Both the position numbers and the translations under genes were made by a program. A DNA stretch of 64,000 nucleotides from Syncephalis plumigaleata (Eukaryota > Zoopagomycota > Zoopagomycetes > Zoopagales > Piptocephalidaceae), in NCBI GenBank assembly GCA_025201365.1, contig JAIXMF010000011.1, forward strand, positions 620,001-684,000, given 5' to 3'. This document shows, piece after piece, positions 25,656 to 53,749 of this stretch (position 1 is the first letter of the stretch; each line of letters opens with the position of its first letter). A model generated the notes under the pieces. That model was not told the DNA's origin. It searched no databases and was given only the letters and a program-made list of their open reading frames with translations.

Positions 25656-29679
<4,024 letters not shown>

Positions 29680-42276: not shown

Positions 42277-42688
42277 AACATCTATAAATGACGTGCATTA
42301 GATTACTGTAGTGTAATTTGATACATTCTAAGCAACGGTGGTAATGCAGTCATACGATAATTGGCCCTGGCAGTTCATGTCAATATTGCTTCTCTATATC
42401 TATTTGGATCGCATTACCGGTTAGCCGAAACAGGTTGACATGTATTCCTTCATCTAATTGGTATTAATATACTCCGCATACCATCCATTGCTTGTAGATT
42501 GGTAGTTTGACTATATCGATATCTGCCGTCATCTCGGCTATAAATCAAGCGTTTTTTGACACACTCGACTTGTCATCTTCATACTCGTTCTTCTGCTCTG
42601 TTCTGCTCTCTTCTACTCTCTCTCACTACTTTCTACTCTCGTTCTAGTCAGCTTGTCTGTCTATCAATTCCAACAGGCCAACATCAAC
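42277..42688 (+). promoter_or_regulatory. Promoter and leader of the micro-exon gene (TATA at 42539)
   Basis: TATAAAT at 42539-42545, 150 bp before the ATG at 42689. The following leader (ACTCGACTTGTCATCTTC, pyrimidine-rich, then ACATCAACATG) closely matches the leader of the glycine-rich gene at 44820-44978. This suggests a duplicated promoter. Confidence 0.7.
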
Positions 42689-43908
42689 ATGAAGTTCTCT
42701 GCCATTATCGCTATTGCCGTCGCCATTGTCGCTCTCACCAGTCTGGTCGCCGTTGAAGCTAGTCCCGTCCTGGAACGTCGTGGTATGTCTGGCCGTGACC
42801 CTATCAACTGATGTACTAATCGTAGCCTATTGCTTCATTGTCTACCAATGATTATCGATAGCTCGTAAGTTCATGTATATCAAGTGGTTGTTTTGATACG
42901 CTAATCACATCATAATGTTTACTCTATCTATTAATTTTTTAGCTGACGAAGAGCGTAAGCTAGTTTATAAAGCATAACAAGTGCTATGCTAATAGTAATA
43001 TAAATCAAAATCATATGTGATTATTACTTTAAGAAGTAAGTTACTAATTTAACCCCAACAAATATAAATATTTACTAATTACAATCTGGTGCATGATCCA
43101 CGCACGCTTTAACAGTGTGTAAGCCAACATCTTGATTGCAATGTTAATCGCTAATTTCAATATGGCAGTGCGTAAGTTAGCACACTAGCTGCAATATCCG
43201 TCATGCTAATTACACTATGACACATGATCCACATATTTTGCGTATTCTAGAAAGTAAGTTACCATTTCGATTACAATCTACGGTATACTAATCATGCTAT
43301 GGCATATGAATACACCTATCTTCCTGTATGATAGGGCGTAAGTTACTACTCTGATCGTAATGAATGACGTACTAATCACGGTATTGCACACGATTTACAT
43401 ATGTTTTTGTATGATAGGTCGTAAGTTACGATACAAATATAGCGTATGAGTACTAATCACGCTATGACATGTGATCGACGTGTGTTCCTGTACGATAGAT
43501 GGTAAGTCACGATACAACTATAGTGTATTAGTACTAATCACAATATGCCATATGGTCCACGCATGCTTGCGGATAACAGTGTGTAAGTAAACATTCCGGT
43601 TGTAACCTATGCTGTATTAATTTCGATGTGGCACATGGTCCACATATGCTCCCGTACGATAGCAAGTAAGTTACCCTTATGAATATGCGATGAATGAATG
43701 CGCTAATCACAATGCTACTTATGGTTTATGTATGGCTGCACATAACAGTGCGTAAGTAAACATTCCAACCGTCATCTATGTAACACTAATTACAATACGA
43801 TATACATTAATTGAATGATAGTAATAAGCGGTAAGTAATAATCTACAATAATCACACCCATACTAATCCATTATGATTACAGAACAAGACAAGGACATCA
43901 TCAAGTAG
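42689..43908 (+). CDS. Micro-exon gene for a small secreted peptide
   Basis: Exon 1 (42689-42782) encodes a signal peptide, MKFSAIIAIAVAIVALTSLV, then EASPVLERR, and ends in phase 1 at a GTATGT donor. Thirteen candidate exons follow, separated by GT-AG introns of mostly 78-83 nt: CTC 42862-42864; 12 nt 42943-42954; AA 43034-43035; TGT 43116-43118; TGC 43169-43171; AAA 43251-43253; GGC 43335-43337; GTC 43418-43420; ATG 43499-43501; TGT 43580-43582; CAA 43663-43665; TGC 43749-43751; 9 nt 43822-43830. The last exon starts at 43883. Exon 1 joined directly to the last exon reads RR-EQDKDIIK-stop (stop 43906-43908). If the 2-nt exon counts as it stands, the micro-exons read APDEEQ-CCKGVMCQC and then meet TAA. 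If it is skipped, or is really 3 nt, the frame returns to EQDKDIIK. Not a known family. Confidence 0.65.
42783..43882 (+). repeat. Tandem array of homologous introns with 3-nt spacers
   Basis: About fourteen GT-AG units. Most begin GTAAGT, carry a CTAATCAC-like branch site about 35-50 nt before the acceptor, share a block like CATGATCCACATATG downstream of it, and end ACGATAG, ATGATAG or TAACAG. Introns 4 and 6-12 are visibly related to each other; the introns at 43119-43168 and 43831-43882 are short (50 and 52 nt). The units look like direct duplicates of one ancestral intron plus a three-base exon. Confidence 0.75.
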
Positions 43909-44977
43909 ATATTATAGGTATTCAAGTCAAGAATGTATTGGTGCAAGACCCTTTAGTGTCCATACTATTCAAGTCATTATTCCTTGGTACAACAACAAAT
44001 ATATCTACAAGATCGTTCAATCATTTATTGAATAAATATGTCAATCTATATTCATACACATGATACTCAATACAATCATTTCAATAGAATATAACCAGCC
44101 ATGATGGTTGTAACAGGTGTACGTGTCAATAGTAATGCTGTGTTCTGACAGCTTTGAGGAAATGTGCCAACAAATTGGGAGTTTAGATACTACGATTAGG
44201 ATGAAATTGCATTAGTAAACTGGTATTTTCCGTTCGCATTATTGATTTTGTATCATGGTAAAACAGATGGACAGACTGTCCTTCCTGTATGGCCTTCTAT
44301 AAGTTTGTACGTGCATTTTAAAATGGCCAAGGAGTAATGATTACTATGGAACTTGTCAGCTTCATGTATTAACTAGGAACAAATGGCCAATCATGGTGTA
44401 GCAGCAAGTATTGTTTGTTTTATATCCATGAGGGGAGAAAGGCCTATACGAGGATGTTCGTTACATGTCAATAATGGTAATGATATGGAGGGAATACACA
44501 TAGCATCTTGAGCAGCTCGCATTGATGCCAAATCAACACTCATTAAGGTTTGTCGATATGTGCTTTATTGTTCGATCAGCGTATATTCGATAGCTATACT
44601 ACGGACAAGCAACAATTAACCATTTGGTTACACCGATATTACTGCTACTACTACTGCCATTACTCACTCTCCGCATGTACGGAGTAATACGGAGACACGC
44701 TCTCTGATACTTGTTAGGCCAATGATAGCATACGGCATATGGATTAATGTAAGGAAACAGTATAACTCATCCATAATGGTGCTTTTCCTATCTGTATGAT
44801 ATTCCATTACTATTTCGCCTATAAATACAGTACCATTCATGTAGTCGACTTGCCATCTTCTTACTTACTCTTCTACAGCACTCCTGCTACGTTCTACTAA
44901 TACAACTGCTCGTGCTTACAACCACTTTATAACGCATCCCTCTATCCACTCGTCTCTTCCAATAGATCAACATCAAC
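43909..44977 (+). promoter_or_regulatory. Intergenic region and promoter of the glycine-rich gene (TATA at 44820)
   Basis: AATAAATA near 44032 may serve as the poly(A) signal of the micro-exon gene. The middle holds no gene I can support. TATAAAT at 44820-44826 lies 158 bp before the next ATG and is followed by the same kind of leader as at 42539. Confidence 0.6.
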
Positions 44978-45916
44978 ATGAAGTTCACCGCCATTATCGT
45001 TATTGCCGTTATCTCCATTGTAGCTAGCTTGGCTACGGTCAATGCTGCACCTATGTTTGGCAGTGATCCATCTGGCTTTGGTGGTGGTCTAACTGGCTTC
45101 GGTGCTACTTCTCCTGGCATGAGCGGTGGTTTACCTGGCTTTGGCGCTACTTCACCTGGTATTGGTGGTGGTCTAAATAGCTTCGGCGCTACTTCACCTA
45201 TCATGGGCGGTGGTCTAACTGGCTTCGGTGCTACTTCACCTATCATGGGCGGTGGTCTAACTGGCTTCGGTGCTACTTCACCTGGCATGAGCGGTGGTCT
45301 AAATAGCTTTGGCGCTACTTCACCTGGCATTGGTGGTGGTCTAACTGGCTTCGGTGCTACTTCACCTGGTATTGGTGGTGGTCTAAATAGCTTCGGCGCT
45401 ACTTCACCTTATGGGGTGGTCTAAATAGCTTGGCGCTACTTCACCTGGTATTGGTGGTGGTCTAAATAGCTTGGCGCTACTTCACCTGGCATTGGTGGTG
45501 GTCTAAATAGCTTCGGCGCTACTTCACCTGGTATTGGTGGTGGTCTAAATAGCTTCGGCGCTACTTCACCTGGCATTGGTGGTGGTCTAAATAGCTTCGG
45601 CACTACTTCACCTAGCATGGGAGATGCTTCACTTGGATTGGGTGCTACTTCACCTGGCGTGGGAGATGCTTCACTTGGATGGCGCTACTTCACCTGGCGT
45701 GGGAGATGCTTCACTTGGATTGGGTGCTACTTCACCTGGCGTGGGAGATGCTTCACTTGGATTGGTGCTACTTCACCTGGCACGGAGATGCTTCACTTGG
45801 ATTGGGCCTTCACTGGCGTGGGAGATGCTTCACTTGGATTGGGTGCTACTTCACCTGGCACGGGAGATGCTTCACTTGGATTGGGCGCTGCTTCACCTGG
45901 CACGGGGATGCTTTAA
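44978..45916 (+). CDS. Secreted glycine-rich tandem-repeat protein, frame interrupted in the repeats
   Basis: The signal peptide MKFTAIIVIAVISIVASLAT is followed by NAAPMFGSDPSGFGGGL and then a repeat of 14 residues (42 nt), GFGATSPGIGGGLN with small variations. The first open frame stops at 45424 after SFGATSPYGVV. The same DNA repeat goes on to about 45610 and then changes to a second 42-nt unit coding GDASLGLGATSPGV, ending GAASPGTGML-stop at 45916. Five or more one- or few-base length changes throw the second half out of frame. A protein of about 300 aa is the likely original design. Such Gly/Ala/Ser/Pro repeats suit a cell-wall, adhesive or surface-coat protein, but this is inference. 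Slippage in tandem repeats and sequence error are both possible causes. The paralogous leader links it to the micro-exon gene. Confidence 0.7.
45066..45913 (+). repeat. Two-type 42-bp tandem repeat
   Basis: About 13 units with core GGTGCTACTTCACCTGG (type A, 45066 to about 45627), then about 7 units of type B with GGAGATGCTTCACTTGGA (about 45620-45913). Both keep the GATSPG core. Several units have shortened lengths. Confidence 0.9.
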
Positions 45917-46214
45917 CTGGCAAAGCCATTCATTTATTTGATTTGAACATAAGCAATATTCCACAACTTCCCTCTAAAGTTCGAGAGCTCATCTAACTGC
46001 TTGAAACTCATAAGCAAGCCATTATAAAAGGCAATGATCAAAATAAAGATATGTATTTGAAGGATATTTACACGCTTTTGGTCAATATCAGTACCAATAA
46101 GACCACATCACAATAATCAATACAGCGTGTATATTATTCATCTTAATTCATTACTACTAAATGATTTTGATTGTGTAAATAAAAGATTTATTATTTTAAC
46201 GATACGCTTATCGT

Positions 46215-46721
46215 CTAGCATTTTGGAAGTATCATTGGCAAAAGCGTATTCTTGCCAAATGTTTGCGTCCAGTAAACCTTGCCATCCTTGCTTTGTGCTT
46301 TACCAGCGCCAAAATGAGTGGCATTGCTAAGCATGTTTTTAAGATGACCCTCCGCGCCAGCCCAATTCTTCATGACCTTCTCCTCTGTGTCGAATCCAGA
46401 TGCAATGTTCTCGGCACTGAATGTCCAGTTGCCAGTGGTAAGGATACGTTGATTGAGCGCGGGTTCACCGGGAATGGTGTGTGTAAGCTTATTGTTCTCC
46501 GCTTGATATTCACTATGCTTCTGGGCGATCTTGACTAGTTCCTCGTTCATGCCAAGTGGAGCAAGCTTGTTCTTAGTGCGTAGTTCGTTCACTAGGCATA
46601 GCATTTTTGTGGGATTGAATCCGGTACTAGTTGCGGTAGTGCTAGTCGGAGAGGCAGTAGCTTGACCAGTATGGATGGCTATAAGAGCGGTGGCAATGGC
46701 GATGACTGCGGTGAACTTCAT
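46215..46721 (-). CDS. Secreted CAP/SCP protein 3
   Basis: Single-exon, 168 aa. The signal peptide MKFTAVIAIATALIAIHTG is followed by a Thr/Ser linker and a full CAP domain: KMLCLVNELRTKNKLAPLGM, IAQKHSEYQAENNKLTH, GNWTFSAENIASGFDTEE, VMKNWAGAEGHLKNMLS, NATHFGAGKAQSKDG and VYWTQTFGK, ending LPKC. The four CAP signature positions (HSEYQA His, AENIA Glu, GHLKN His, THFGAG) are all present, so this is the best preserved copy. CAP proteins are extracellular and many bind lipids. Its signal peptide resembles those of the micro-exon and glycine-rich genes although the mature parts are unrelated. On the minus strand, tail to tail with the glycine-rich gene, 298 bp apart. Confidence 0.93.
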   Translation of the reverse strand: MKFTAVIAIATALIAIHTGQATASPTSTTATSTGFNPTKMLCLVNELRTKNKLAPLGMNEELVKIAQKHSEYQAENNKLTHTIPGEPALNQRILTTGNWTFSAENIASGFDTEEKVMKNWAGAEGHLKNMLSNATHFGAGKAQSKDGKVYWTQTFGKNTLLPMILPKC

Positions 46722-47402: not shown

Positions 47403-47885
47403 TTAGCATTTTGGAATATTCTTGGGTAAAGCGTGGTTACAGGCGAAATCAGCCGTCCAGTAGGGAACACCGTCGTCGTTGACCGACATACCACAACCGA
47501 AATGAGTTGCCGTATCGGTGAACATATGGGCATACTCGCTATTGTTGGTCCAGTACTCGAACACGCTCTCCATGGAGTTGTAGCTGCACGCGACACTCTC
47601 CTTCAAGTTGGTCCAATGGACACCGTGAGCGGAACAACGCTTCAACAGGTTGTCCTCGTCGGCAAAGTACTGCGCCACCTTATTATGTCTGGCCTGACAT
47701 TCGCTATGACGTTGAGCGGACTCGTTCAGCGTGTCGTGTAGACTTAACGGGGCGAGACCCTTCGACTGACGATAATTATTCACGAGACAAGCCATCTTGG
47801 TGTGGTCGAATTCGACGTAGTTGGCGGACACCTCATTCACGCCGACGACGGCCATGATAGTAGCAATAACCAAGGAGAACTTCAT
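47403..47885 (-). CDS. Secreted CAP/SCP protein 4 (cysteine-rich)
   Basis: Single-exon, 160 aa. The signal peptide MKFSLVIATIMAVVGVNEVS is followed by a CAP domain: KMACLVNNYRQSKGLAPLSL, AQRHSECQARHNKVAQYF, LKESVACSYNSMESVFEYWT, THFGCGMSVNDDGVPYWTAD and FACNHALPKNIPKC. It has six to seven cysteines in the mature part, more than copy 3, so it may be more disulphide-stabilised. The glutamate equivalent to AENIA is kept as ESVACS, but the GH dipeptide of copy 3 is replaced by EYAHM. Same strand as CAP3 and 681 bp upstream of it, so probably a tandem duplicate that has diverged. Confidence 0.92.
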   Translation of the reverse strand: MKFSLVIATIMAVVGVNEVSANYVEFDHTKMACLVNNYRQSKGLAPLSLHDTLNESAQRHSECQARHNKVAQYFADEDNLLKRCSAHGVHWTNLKESVACSYNSMESVFEYWTNNSEYAHMFTDTATHFGCGMSVNDDGVPYWTADFACNHALPKNIPKC

Positions 47886-48658: not shown

Positions 48659-51600
48659 CTACAGACCGAATCCTGTACGAGGTCGACGTGGTGTTTGCAT
48701 ACGAACACCAGGTGTGGAGATACGCGTTCTATCCCAATTCAATTGCATTACTCGTCGTTAGCCATGTTTATCACTCATCATCTTATCATCCCACGCCACT
48801 GCAGCCATTTTCTTCATCGATCATGTCTACTCACCTTGGTGTTGGTACGGTCGAGGCCAACTCTTGCTCGCGTGATTGTCTCTCGGTGGCACGTCGTAAC
48901 TCTTCCTCCATCGATTTGTACTCCTTTTTATCGTGTTGTCGTCGTTCTTTATGTGTCCAACCCGCTTCTTTGACACTATAGAACATAGGGCCTATTATCA
49001 TTACCTTGTGTTAGTGTGACTATCATTTACGCTGATGCATCAATACTAACCTAGTTCCGCCAGCCAATAGGGATCTACTGCTGTGACACACTGCATGTAT
49101 TCCTTGGAGGTAAGTACCAGTTCATGATAGACGATATAATCCGGTATAGCTATAGATTACGCGTCAAGAAGTAGCATTAAAGACTAACTATTACTACTAT
49201 TACTACTAATATTCTTATTATACACGATAAAGGATACAGCCCATGCCGTAGAGTGCACTTGTTGGATGTAAATGACATTTCATACCAGTACGCAAGTTAA
49301 GATAGTCACCGATACCTTTCACTCGAGCTGCTTGATGGAAATAGGCAGAACAGATGCATTTACTATTTGAGTAGCATGAGTGTACATGTTAACTATCAAT
49401 ATATAAGAAATAACCTTACCGTACAGCATCCCAGCTATTGCCGCATGACACGTAAGGCATCTTTACCACTTTCATAATATCCATGAGTTGCGATCGTACT
49501 TCTTGCGCCTTACGCATTGCCTTTGCGTGTATGTAATGCTGCGTACACCATCGATCACTATAACTATAAGGCAATAATGAATAAATAAATAAGCAAGTAC
49601 CTAGTAAACTAGTATACTTACTTGTGTGATTTCCATTGATTATATACATTGAGTAATGTTAAATGATCACTCTCTGGTACCATAAACTTCTCCCTTGCTG
49701 CATCACTTTCTTCCATACGTTCCTTGGGTCGATAGAATACAGTAGGTACGGATAACATGGATACAATGATCTATCCATATGGTTACTATTCCACTATTCA
49801 TTCTATATATATATATATATATATGCCGAATACTTACTAGAATCTCTTGTGTACAACCGAGTTCCTCCGAGGTGATCAACATCTTGGCCAGTTGTGGATC
49901 CAACGGGAACTCCACCATACGTCGACCTAATGCCGTCAGGTCACCGGTGTTATCGAGTGCACCCAGCACCCATAGTTGATACATCGAGTTCAATATGGTC
50001 TCTTGCGGAGGTGGATCCATAAAATCGAAATCTAATAGATTCTTGACACCTAGCGATTTCAATTGCAACACGACAACCGACAAGTTGGTACGCTGAATCT
50101 CCGGTATAGTATTGGGAACATTTCGCAATCATACGCTTGCTCCGTGTACAATCGATAACATATACTATGTCGCATTATTAGAGTGTTAGTTACTCGTTGG
50201 CTGAATGGTGATGATGATAATGACATCTTCATCGCTACTTACCCAGGACCTGTACGACCAGCTCGACCGGACCGTTGATTGGCATTGGCCTGACTAATCG
50301 GTGTGATTTGCAGGGAATCCATACCGATACGCGGGTTATACACGGTCAACTTGTAGTAACCCGAATCGATCACGTACATGACACCATCGAGGGTGAGCGA
50401 TGTCTCGGCGATATTCGTGGCGACAATACACTTTCGCTGACCACCCTCGGCACGTTGAAATATCTTTGCCTGTAGATCGGCAGGCATTTGCGAATAGATG
50501 GGCAGGACGGCGAGTGGTTCCGCATCATCCAATTGCTCGAGTCGTTCTATTATTGATTTAGTATAACATCTCATCTAGAATCTATTAACTTACCATTTAG
50601 TACTTCACAAGTAGTTTCGATATCTTCTTGACCCGTCATGAATATTAGAATATCACCAGGTCCATGTGATAAATGTACGCTTAATGCTTGTTTCACCGCA
50701 CTCTCTACGTAATCCTCGCATGGTGTCTTGCTGAATGATATATCCACCGGGAACGTACGACCAGGAATGGTAAATGCTGGACATGACCAAAGAATGTAGA
50801 AAACTAGTTCACATTGTTACTAACAGCAATAGCAATAATCTATATGATCCACTTACCTTATCTGCATTCATGGTAGCCGAGGTAACAATCAACTTTAAAT
50901 CACGTCGACGTGTAATAACTAGTACATGACCATTGTTAGTATAAATAATCATCTAGTATAAACAATTGAAGCACTACCTCTACGTACAATCCCATAAGCA
51001 CGTCTGTTTGCATGGAACGTTCGTGTGCCTCGTCCATAATAATACAGCTATACTTGTCTAGATCCGCTTCCTTGAGTGATTCTCGTAAAAGTACACCATC
51101 CGTCATGTATTTAATAAGTGTCTCTGACGATGTACAATCCTCGAATCGAATCGAGTAACCAACTAGTTTACCCAGTTGACAGTCCATCTCCTCGCTAACA
51201 CGTTTAGCCACCGACATGGCAGCCACTCGACGTGGTTGCGTACAACCAATGAGACCATTACGACTGTAGCCGGCTTCATGTAGATACTGTACCAGTTGAG
51301 TGGTCTTACCGGATCCTGTCTCTCCTACTACTACGATCACTTGATGATCACGTATGATTTGTAATAGTTCTTCACGAACTGCAAATGCTGGTAGAAATTC
51401 ACGCTGTTCTTGTATAGATTTAGTTAGAGCAAACTGACTAACTGCATCCGATGATTTATCCATATGTTTAGCAAATTTCGACTCTTTCATGCCATCATTT
51501 GGCTTATTATCTATTAACATTATTAGTATTAGTATACCTTGACATACTATTGATCCATTATTACTTGCCTTCATCTCTATTCTCTCCATCTTCATCTTCT

Positions 51601-53749
51601 TCATCTTCATCTCCCAGACCTTCCTCCTTTTGTGTTATACCCATTACATTGCCCAATGCTGTACCGGCTAATTTGAATTTCTCTGCATTCTAATCCATCA
51701 ATAATAGTTGATATTTGTTAATACATTATACATGGAATATGTATATATATATATATGGCACTTACTTTCATGCGTTCTCGTTGTTCGCGTTTCTCCTTAA
51801 CTAGACGACTGCCTTGACGGGCAAACTTGGCCATATCCGAACTAAGATCACGTACTGGCTGTACCATTTCCAACTGTTTCGTAAACACCATATGTCCACT
51901 AAGGAATGGCGGTTTCAAATCGTGAATCAATAGATGTACTCGTACCTAATATCAATCGTTAATCTATATATGTGTGTATATACAGTTTGCTAGTAATTAC
52001 ATCGTCATCATTATCGAAATCTGTATCCACTTGAGTTCGATGCATAATACCGCTTGTCAACATTCGATTGGTCTCCCAAAGCTCGTTATCTTGATTGTAC
52101 TGCGCTTGTCGAGCAGACATACGCTTCGCTTGTCGCTGTGTCAACTCTTCTTCTTTACGCTGATAATACGCATCATGATCACCAAATGGTGTGTCTTCAT
52201 TCACCTACTCGTATAATGTATTAGTTAAGGTAATAGTCAACTATCATCGTCAATACGCGTGTATTCATTCCTCGTCTACTTACGCCAAATTCCTCGCTGT
52301 TGTACCAATCACGATCTAATCGAGTCTGTTCCTCCTCCCATTCTTGTCGATCAATCTCGACTTCCGCCGTATCTGGCACCGTACTACTAGATGGATCATC
52401 GTAGCCAGTCGACGTAACAAGCGGTGTGGCCATCTCCCATTCCGATCGACGTACTGATGATTTCATTCGATCATATTCTACATAGAATTCATTAGTATTC
52501 GTACACTCATTGAATAACACGGTCATCTACTAGATGATTAACATACCACTACGTGTGGTTAGACCACCTCGTATACTAGGCGTGTAATCCGATCGCATCG
52601 GTGTCTTTTCCCAATCACTTCGCGAGTAGCGTTGAATTTCACGATCTTCCCGTGGTGCCACATGATCATCATTGCTACGATTACTACGACGAGAACGCTC
52701 CTCGTGCTGACTATCTCGAGATCGAGTTTTCTCTTGCAAACGATGACCTATCATTGACATGACAAATGAATGTTAGTGATCAACATGACAAACTAACATC
52801 AATACTAGTGACATACCTCGATTCTTGTCACGTTCACGTCGTTCCTCAACGCGTGCTTTATACTCATCGCTTACACCACCTGTATGTGATGGTGTTTCAA
52901 TACGACGTCCTCGTATCTTTGCTCGTTTCACCGATCCTTCCTCTTTATTACGCGTGTGATAACATTATAGCATGGTAAATATCTTCTAATACAATGGTAA
53001 TCATCCATGACACTCACCGCCATTCTGGAAACTTAGTCGAGATGATATAGGGTTAGGTCGTTTAAATTCGATCTTCTCTGGATTTCGCTCATTAGAACCA
53101 GCTGTTGATGATGTTGAGGCAGAGGCAGCAGCAGCAGCGAGTTCACGACGTTTTTCATCAGCAAGTCGATCTAAACCAAGCATTGATTGTCGTGGTGGTG
53201 GCTTCTTGAATACAGGTTGCTAGTTGATGTTTACTTTATTAGTACAAGCAAGCAATACTTGATAGCTGACTACTGACTCCATCACTTACATTATCCATTG
53301 ATTTGTTACTTAATTTACCAGATGGTCGACGAATAAGACCACCACGTTCCATATCAGTATCCATGTCATTATCGGTGGGCTGTACTGCTTTAATTTCAGT
53401 GGCTGCCAGAATAGTAGTTGGCTTGTGCCATTTCTTAATATCATAATAGATATTCTGTAGGAATTCATCGTCAAATCTACCAAATGCACGACATACTAGT
53501 AGAAGAAACTGGTCATCAGTAACAATAATAGCAATCGCGTCATCTAGCTTGTTCATCATCTCACTTACATTGCTTAAACTTCTCGCTGCCATCTCCGGAA
53601 TTAACGGCAAACGATACGACGCGTTCGGCTAGCGTGCGATTGGCTTGGGCCGTGTTAAGTGCTCGTGATAATCGTGTCGCTAATTCTTGGATCTGCTCCT
53701 CTGACACTCCACCTGCGGTACTATTCGACGACGATGACGACGACGACAT
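48659..53749 (-). CDS. PRP16: DEAH-box spliceosomal helicase PRP16 (DHX38)
   Basis: RNA helicase driving the rearrangement between the two catalytic steps of splicing. The start at 53749 reads [19 protein letters not shown]. The N-terminal part has [28 protein letters not shown], an RS/RE-rich region, [31 protein letters not shown] and [14 protein letters not shown], all PRP16-specific. The core reads [92 protein letters not shown] and [20 protein letters not shown]. The C-terminus, [18 protein letters not shown], matches the family ending. The stop is at 48659-48661. About 15 introns. One base appears to be missing near 50125-50132, between TEQAYD and [14 protein letters not shown]. Lacks the S1 domain of PRP22. 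Confidence 0.93.

Follow-up and report, generated by a model that had tools for sequence, protein, structure and literature searches.

The window, by which we mean the whole 64-kb stretch of DNA analysed, comes from Syncephalis plumigaleata, a zoopagomycete of a genus described as mycoparasitic in the portions of the literature available. At 42689-43908 on its plus strand, the original prediction had placed a secreted-peptide gene with ten 3-nt exons, among which lie exons of 12, 9 and 2 nt, in a spacing judged very unlikely by chance. Indeed, AG-N3-GTAAG[T/C] is matched 11 times in this interval, with 15 matches on the plus strand and one on the minus strand for the entire window, while after dinucleotide shuffling this 1,220-nt interval has 0.036 matches on average and two at most (n = 2,000). 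Given that the match at 42950 is an alternative AG within the 12-nt exon, these represent ten distinct 3-nt exons and not 11. All the predicted exons are recovered by a parse of the splice signals, which yields 14 introns and 13 micro-exons between a 94-nt exon 1 and a terminal exon, the micro-exons measuring in order 3, 12 and 2 nt, nine times 3 nt, and 9 nt.

A TATAAAT box read from the sequence at 42539-42545, 5' of the start codon, is a putative promoter element of this plus-strand gene. Exon 1 (42689-42782, 94 nt, phase-1 end) would encode a signal peptide and pro-segment, MKFSAIIAIAVAIVALTSLVAVEASPVLERR, plus a G. As it ends one base past an Arg-Arg pair, which is presumably a Kex2 site, Kex2-type cleavage would free the peptide encoded by the micro-exons, save one base. 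According to the splice parse, intron 1 (42783-42861, 79 nt, GTATGT...TACTAAT...ATAG) precedes the 3-nt exon CTC (42862-42864), the 12-nt micro-exon CTGACGAAGAGC (42943-42954) and the 2-nt micro-exon AA (43034-43035), which moves the frame out of phase 1 into phase 0. The parse then gives nine single-codon exons, namely TGT (Cys, 43116-43118), TGC (Cys, 43169-43171), AAA (Lys, 43251-43253), GGC (Gly, 43335-43337), GTC (Val, 43418-43420), ATG (Met, 43499-43501), TGT (Cys, 43580-43582), CAA (Gln, 43663-43665) and TGC (Cys, 43749-43751), and a 9-nt stop micro-exon, TAATAAGCG (43822-43830), which begins with an in-frame TAA in phase 0. The last intron (43831-43882, 52 nt, GTAAGT...TACTAAT...ACAG) leads to the terminal exon with the 3' UTR (43883-44060), whose start is placed from splice signals and whose 3' end is approximate. 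A CTAAT branch-point box is found in 13 of the 14 introns, the exception being intron 43583-43662, and intron 43119-43168 has only 50 nt. Hence the first 94 + 3 + 12 + 2 nt make 37 codons, followed by nine triplets in phase 0 and the TAA, and the decoded product is MKFSAIIAIAVAIVALTSLVAVEASPVLERRAPDEEQCCKGVMCQC, which in the proposed reading would be divided as MKFSAIIAIAVAIVALTSLVAVEASPVLERR-APDEEQCCKGVMCQC. The 2-nt exon as phase adjuster, the TAA opening the 9-nt exon and the recurrence of this layout genome-wide go beyond what had been predicted.

Downstream, at 44979-45920 (plus strand), lies a gene for a secreted-looking Gly-rich repeat protein with a 42-nt unit in about 17 copies; its start, MKFTAIIVIAV, resembles the start of the array family, no micro-exons were noticed there, and the signal exon may derive from it or be its sibling. 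The same MKF-type start is seen in two CAP-domain (PF00188) proteins encoded on the minus strand at 46215-46721 and 47403-47885. The window also contains a helicase gene with S1 and HA2 domains (26487-29328, plus strand), which we take to be Prp22-like, and a second helicase gene with a DEAD/DEAH helicase domain (50936-51610, minus strand), perhaps of a kind acting in splicing.

Occurrence and architecture of the array loci

Patterns were counted over 32.6 Mb in 383 contigs, with both haplotypes included. GATAG-N3-GTAAGT is found at 1,172 sites compared to 54 in the reversed control, while spacers of two nucleotides (37 sites, control 49) or four (39 sites, control 45) remain at background; chance spacing was rejected on this comparison and on the shuffles of the window gene. 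Furthermore, the branch-box pattern gives 467 matches (control 59) and a pattern spanning two units 933 (control 7), and a 32-mer with which the terminal exon begins occurs in 156 genomic copies at up to 3 mismatches, 89 of them exact, with none in the control. Exon 1 with intron 1 (42660-42870) resembles 39 other places at 91-96% identity, and the terminal exon with the 3' end another 39 at 90-97%; in both cases 40 places were scored with the window's own counted in, out of 201 and 223 candidates, respectively. Judging from these sequence matches, the window gene very probably belongs to a family that numbers roughly 150 loci, a size taken from the 156 terminal exons of both haplotypes.

We examined 45 loci, that is, the window and 44 fetched stretches (L009-L052). 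The first 40 stretches surround places among the 100 listed of the 467 branch-box matches, those listed having zero mismatches, and the other four are relatives from similarity searches with exon 1 and the 3' end; being selected by the branch-point pattern, the sample is not random. Arrays are present in 43 of the 45 loci, L021 and L039 being without, and comprise 1,199 micro-exons, of which 1,047 are of 3 nt, with the longest unbroken run of one-codon exons reaching 45 in L048 and L052. The exact GATAG-N3-GTAAGT context surrounds 443 of these 1,047 single-codon exons, from which (1,172 - 54)/0.423, or about 2,600, single-codon exons can be extrapolated, a number that counts both haplotypes and builds on arrays picked by pattern. 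Removal of nine near-identical partners leaves a non-redundant set of 34 loci with 966 micro-exons, of 2 (11 exons), 3 (840), 5 (22), 6 (28), 9 (42), 12 (11) and 15 nt (8), and single ones of 11, 14, 20 and 24 nt. No micro-exon of 1, 4, 7, 8 or 10 nt is found in these 34 loci; the end-to-end parse has in addition one exon of 8 nt (L038), one of 13 nt (L027) and one of 22 nt (L040), which are apparent mis-parses.

A total of 33 genes, with both ends inside the fetched stretch, were parsed end to end from splice signals only, with the reading frame ignored. Six further starts gave no parse, an end or the chain being missing, and one of these, on the minus strand of the window, is a non-member. 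The usual layout begins with a 94-nt exon 1 that ends in phase 1 just past Arg-Arg and continues with a few micro-exons, up to 45 one-codon exons, a stop micro-exon and a 3' UTR exon. The length of exon 1 is 1 modulo 3 in all 33 genes, and in 25 of them exactly one micro-exon is not a multiple of 3, always among the first four; this phase-restoring exon has 2 or 5 nt in 24 of those 25 genes, and it sits at the third or fourth ordinal in most paralogues. Variations of the layout can be seen as well. L024 (G000:C58:8000-17900) mixes 3-nt and 6-nt exons (AAACCC, ACACCT, AATCCC, CCT) encoding a Pro-rich stretch, and in L040 (G000:C113:159000-165000) the 9- and 12-nt micro-exons of the pro-region are repeated (CTCCACCTC and similar), indicating that more than one type of unit can be amplified.

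Triplets as codons

Despite the parse being blind to frame, the triplets of 23 of the 33 genes form one frame that stays open to the last micro-exon, an in-frame stop exon, as expected for a coding micro-exon gene, and 25 of 33 stay open to the last two. Position-matched random triplets leave 12.4 and 14.1 genes open on average, with maxima of 20 and 23 (n = 1,000), in a control run on all 33 genes which has the same mean as with the 23 open genes only. In each of the 23 frame-open genes the last micro-exon contains a TAA, in L040 by the mis-parse of its last exon, so that 22 rather than 23 are clean. The other ten parses fail through indels in exon 1 (L010, L019), the lack of a recovered 2- or 5-nt phase adjuster (L017, L020, L027), a mid-array 2-nt exon that disrupts the frame (L029, L038, L043) or a stop one micro-exon before the last (L035, L050). 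With earlier parsers fewer genes stayed open (17 of 27 for one version), since they allowed neither GC donors nor AAG acceptors; the final parser was altered in splice signals only, though after the failing genes had been seen.

The content of the triplets points in the same direction. Among the 840 non-redundant triplets there is no stop, with 24.2 expected from positional base frequencies, and because TAG contains AG and may be barred anyway, it is worth stating that TAA and TGA together are likewise absent with 17.6 expected; a simpler definition keeping all loci has one TGA among 625 triplets. When the triplet runs are read in the three frames, phase 0 has no stop in 785 codons, while phase 1 has 3 and phase 2 has 85, each in 745. 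Given that the phase-1 frame is nearly stop-free too, the lack of stops alone cannot designate the frame. The triplets of the 34 loci use all 20 amino acids. Adjacent Cys-Cys pairs occur 16 times, in 16 of the 34 loci, compared to 7.5 in within-array shuffles (maximum 15, n = 2,000), and of the 23 decoded peptides ten have four Cys, twelve have none and one has two. The four-Cys peptides of L016 (GAEWDCDDQICCKVINGETTGYCRDRH) and L041 (AEGPCIKISNRCCYENSDKPGTLFCDDR) display a C...CC...C pattern.

Another reading would take the whole array as one long composite intron made of repeated intron-like units, 1.1 kb in the window gene, removed at once or recursively, with no triplet included and exon 1 joined to the terminal exon. 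In its favour, exon 1 in phase 1 joined to 43883 stays open as ...LERR-EQDKDIIK-stop (43883-43908), a tail also met in one mis-parse, and the identity of the terminal-exon 32-mer in 89 of the 156 copies would suit it. However, the reading leaves unexplained the absence of stops among the 840 triplets, the asymmetry between frames, the Cys-Cys excess, the 2- or 5-nt phase adjuster of 24 of the 33 genes and the in-frame TAA, and it does not account for deposited gene models that include triplet residues; we regard it as highly improbable. Even less credence, to the point of being hardly tenable, is given to the arrays being decaying untranslated relics, an intron minisatellite beside silent signal exons. 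The broken copies L010, L019, L029, L038 and L043 and the divergence of triplets at least as fast as introns would be in keeping with decay, but neither stop-free triplets over 34 non-redundant loci nor 23 of 33 parses open to a stop exon (12.4 expected) would be anticipated from relics.

The deposited models are independent of our parse, although they may be ab initio predictions, and the alignment to decoded products covered three of 26 relatives, deposited or predicted. The protein BDF22DRAFT_685769 (P0003) holds NPINGSMDYVYWKPIVPGYWGPIN-GL-CY-TPSMEK-ECAPEK, which is the succession of triplet residues of L048/L052 in order, minus five single residues, and reads RKFMYINYS ahead of them where the L052 parse gives LA. 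P0004 matches most of L044, without a G and a TP and with a different end, and P0001 agrees with L031 after exon 1 only at P-QEWNEF; by eye, P0015 shares stretches with L033. Automatic annotation gets these genes wrong, as several deposited family models run into intron sequence or miss codons. Searching 5.8 billion proteins with a profile returned 26 hits at E <= 1, of which 17 are from S. plumigaleata and the remaining nine are seven JGI 'hypothetical protein' entries, one ENA entry and P0002. P0018-P0020, P0022 and P0023 end in a P0002-like tail, which is exon 1 read into intron 1, while in P0021 the signal sequence is part of a longer, uninterrupted protein. The occurrence of such tails in relatives outside the S. 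plumigaleata set suggests that the same exon-1/intron-1 junction may also be present in other fungi.

Together, the behaviour of the triplets as codons in one frame, the frame-blind parses reaching the last micro-exon in 23 of 33 genes and the two deposited models with long runs of the same residues agree with the original prediction of a secreted-peptide gene with a run of single-codon exons. We therefore consider it very likely that, in a multi-locus family of S. plumigaleata, nearly every codon of the mature secreted peptide has an exon to itself. The decoded members have a hydrophobic N-terminus, as judged by eye, and their peptides are highly variable. A Pfam search of 15 decoded proteins returned none at E <= 0.001, the hits being to six families with one member each and a best E of 0.046, and PDB searches returned nothing below E 2.3. 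Their signal sequence and Cys patterns, together with the lifestyle known for the genus, suggest that the peptides probably have an extracellular role, with host fungi as a possible target.

Array introns, proposed splicing and change of the arrays

The array introns are stereotyped, with a modal length of 80 nt, a GTAAGT donor and a TACTAAT/C branch box whose A usually lies 43 nt before the acceptor, and a consensus was built from 817 of them; a CTAAT/C box is missing in 103 of 625 introns. Between box and acceptor, AG occurs 108 times in 507 introns compared to 897 in mononucleotide shuffles, a depletion broadly consistent with use of the first AG, and 106 of the 507 introns still have an AG there. 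Only 56 of 625 triplets end in G, hence no preference for a donor-type final G, and GC-AG introns follow directly on TGG codons (TGG then GCAAGT) in the arrays of L012, L015, L027 and L036. As to RNA structure, the introns fold with a mean z of -0.34 relative to mononucleotide shuffles (120 introns), RNAalifold run on 200 rows gave an empty conserved structure, and column covariation over 814 distinct rows shows a slight excess of pairing at column pairs 60-73 and 61-72.

In the mechanism that we propose, exon 1 would supply the signal peptide and a pro-segment ending in Arg-Arg, and the repeating unit would consist of an intron of about 80 nt, with a strong GTAAGT donor and usually a branch box about 43 nt from the acceptor, and one codon. 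Splicing would most likely proceed by intron definition, the introns being removed one by one, and every removal would append one codon to the growing upstream exon. Since the recognition signals are nearly all intronic, the triplet would be free to be almost any sense codon. The stop would be carried by the last micro-exon, with the conserved 3' UTR exon next. Given that one unit equals one codon, the gain or loss of a unit would alter the length of the peptide with the frame kept, making the locus a codon-cassette array under conserved ends. For the array genes, we infer transcription, constitutive inclusion of the triplets, splicing order, cleavage and function from the genomic sequence.

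Constitutive inclusion may be set against the possibility, raised in the original prediction, that the triplets are optional exons, so that in-frame skipping of codon cassettes would yield many related peptides from each locus. A single intron consensus is common to the units, and any 3-nt exon can be skipped in frame; furthermore, the five single residues of the L052 product that are missing from P0003 (C, P, C, R and E) could be skipped exons as well as prediction errors. Against it, skipping one codon requires an intron of about 163 nt, roughly twice the array norm, and scattered skipping would destroy the C...CC...C patterns. The size objection is not decisive, as a crude scan of the window with a ceiling of about 200 nt gave 53 candidates for ordinary introns, of which 8 measure 120-200 nt, 4 of these 8 being of 150-200 nt. 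On balance we find optional inclusion doubtful.

How the arrays change can be followed in the nine near-identical pairs, which are haplotypes or recent duplicates. Of the 193 triplets they align, 9 differ, all of them non-synonymously, which corresponds to 14 nt in 579 sites (2.4%) compared to 280 in 17,046 sites (1.64%) for the introns. Purifying selection on individual codons is thus not seen between these near-identical copies, a result in keeping with highly variable peptides but no proof of function. Five of the 9 altered triplets carry two-base changes, with 0.15 expected (Poisson P = 7e-7), and the 15-nt flanks of changed triplets have 1.0 and 1.4 mismatches compared to 0.18 and 0.29. 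Positive selection on codons was considered as the sole account and set aside, because with such diverged flanks an exchange of units, that is, patchy replacement, explains the changes equally well. Whole units differ too within pairs, by 2 in L018/L032 and by 12 in L023/L034.

Adjacent identical triplets number 67 compared to 37.0 in shuffles (sd 5.5), and the introns are more than 85% alike in 25% of 51 identical non-Cys neighbours compared to 4.6% of 692 different neighbours. Some units are recent duplicates, for example in L011, L024, L029, L034 and L051. As a general origin, however, recent tandem duplication was rejected: mean intron identity is 69% between neighbours and 67% between genes, and with neighbours hardly more alike most units must be old. 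The arrays could also have arisen through mobile intron copies of the introner type, which would have invaded ordinary coding sequence and left a codon between insertions. The 817 aligned introns do form one sequence family, and an excess of adjacent identical triplets is what a 3-bp target duplication would yield; but tandem duplication of intron plus codon gives the same excess, as the 25% and 4.6% of near-alike introns illustrate, and the two pairs named above differ in whole units. We hold such an origin to be quite unlikely, and it would in any case bear on where the arrays came from and not on their present function. Beyond the encoding of a peptide by single-codon exons, we tentatively raise, as a possibility that we would not favour at present, that the arrays form a diversity system, in which exchangeable intron-plus-codon units are duplicated, lost and swapped, and in which skipping may also yield many peptides per transcript.

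Comparison with known systems

The layout proposed for this family, with an intron of about 80 nt between neighbouring amino acids, is far more fragmented than that of any gene family found in the literature searched. If the proposed reading is true, the spliceosome builds peptides almost codon by codon, with up to 45 consecutive 3-nt exons per transcript, so that the minimal size of an exon, a sequential order of splicing and the sufficiency of intron definition become testable. The same reading would provide variable secreted peptides whose length shifts by single residues without frameshift, in a setting of little-studied fungi that attack other fungi, and, should the diversity system be real, a eukaryotic case in which splicing edits a peptide residue by residue. 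A run of 3-nt exons was not found among the matches listed for open-access titles and the beginnings of abstracts, and may be described elsewhere, in subscription papers or preprints. In the available portion of the open-access literature S. plumigaleata is named in one paper, a binning analysis that includes its genome among several, and the text obtained of a single-cell genome paper with S. pseudoplumigaleata (PMC6784888) does not contain 'intron', 'exon' or 'secreted'.

Isolated exons of 1-3 nt are described, in the parts of the sources available, for Arabidopsis APC11, Fusarium CYP621A and Dactylellina haptotyla lipS (PMC4674806, PMC12940212, PMC5639578), the nearest case found being two 3-nt exons in the lipS genes (PMC5639578). 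For the 1-nt exon of APC11 the authors suggest intron definition combined with recursive splicing (PMC4674806). These descriptions concern one or two tiny exons per conserved gene, whereas here dozens follow consecutively, would make up the whole mature peptide and recur in a large family. Stwintrons, as far as the material at hand describes them, are likewise complex fungal introns needing consecutive splicing, but in a stwintron the internal intron interrupts a splice signal of the external one, while here complete introns are separated by a codon: in the window gene each of the 14 introns comes with a donor and an acceptor of its own, and 13 with a CTAAT box of their own.

Introners and introner-like elements of algae and fungi resemble the array introns in being similar spliceosomal introns in many copies per genome, but the portion of PMC4457414 available describes near-identical copies in unrelated genes, whereas the units here average 67-69% identity within one gene family, with the qualification that the examined loci, which have exon 1 and the terminal exon in common, were chosen by pattern, so that scattered copies may exist elsewhere. 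Identity above 90% is seen in 0.2% of 2,882 random between-gene intron pairs; an all-pairs comparison gives 200 between-gene pairs at 93% or more, and 18 of the 25 listed are introns preceding the first micro-exon, shared by descent.

Aphid bicycle genes, according to the part of PMC9168663 available, are putative effectors with many very small internal exons and rapid evolution, one related gene having more than 100 microexons. Their internal exons are almost all in phase 2, in contrast with the single-codon exons here, which are in phase 0 (23 of 33 genes open), and runs of single codons, a feature of the present family, are not mentioned for them in that part of the text (PMC9168663).

The closest analogue, likened by description and not by sequence, is the micro-exon genes (MEGs) of schistosomes, which the available part of PMC5825161 presents as a system for protein variation with short symmetric exons of 6-36 bp over about 80% of the coding region. 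Secreted or exposed products and a coding region made mostly of short symmetric exons would be common to both (PMC5825161). However, the modal exon here is 3 nt (840 of the 966 micro-exons in 34 loci), below the 6-36 bp given for MEGs in the text available, the 3-nt runs extend up to 45, the array introns form a single sequence family, and the genes are those of a fungus. Since the exon size of MEGs, the phase of bicycle genes and the near-identity of introners all fail to apply, the expectation that this is not a known system holds, and the family looks like a new category, set apart from MEGs, bicycle genes and introner-like elements by their descriptions.
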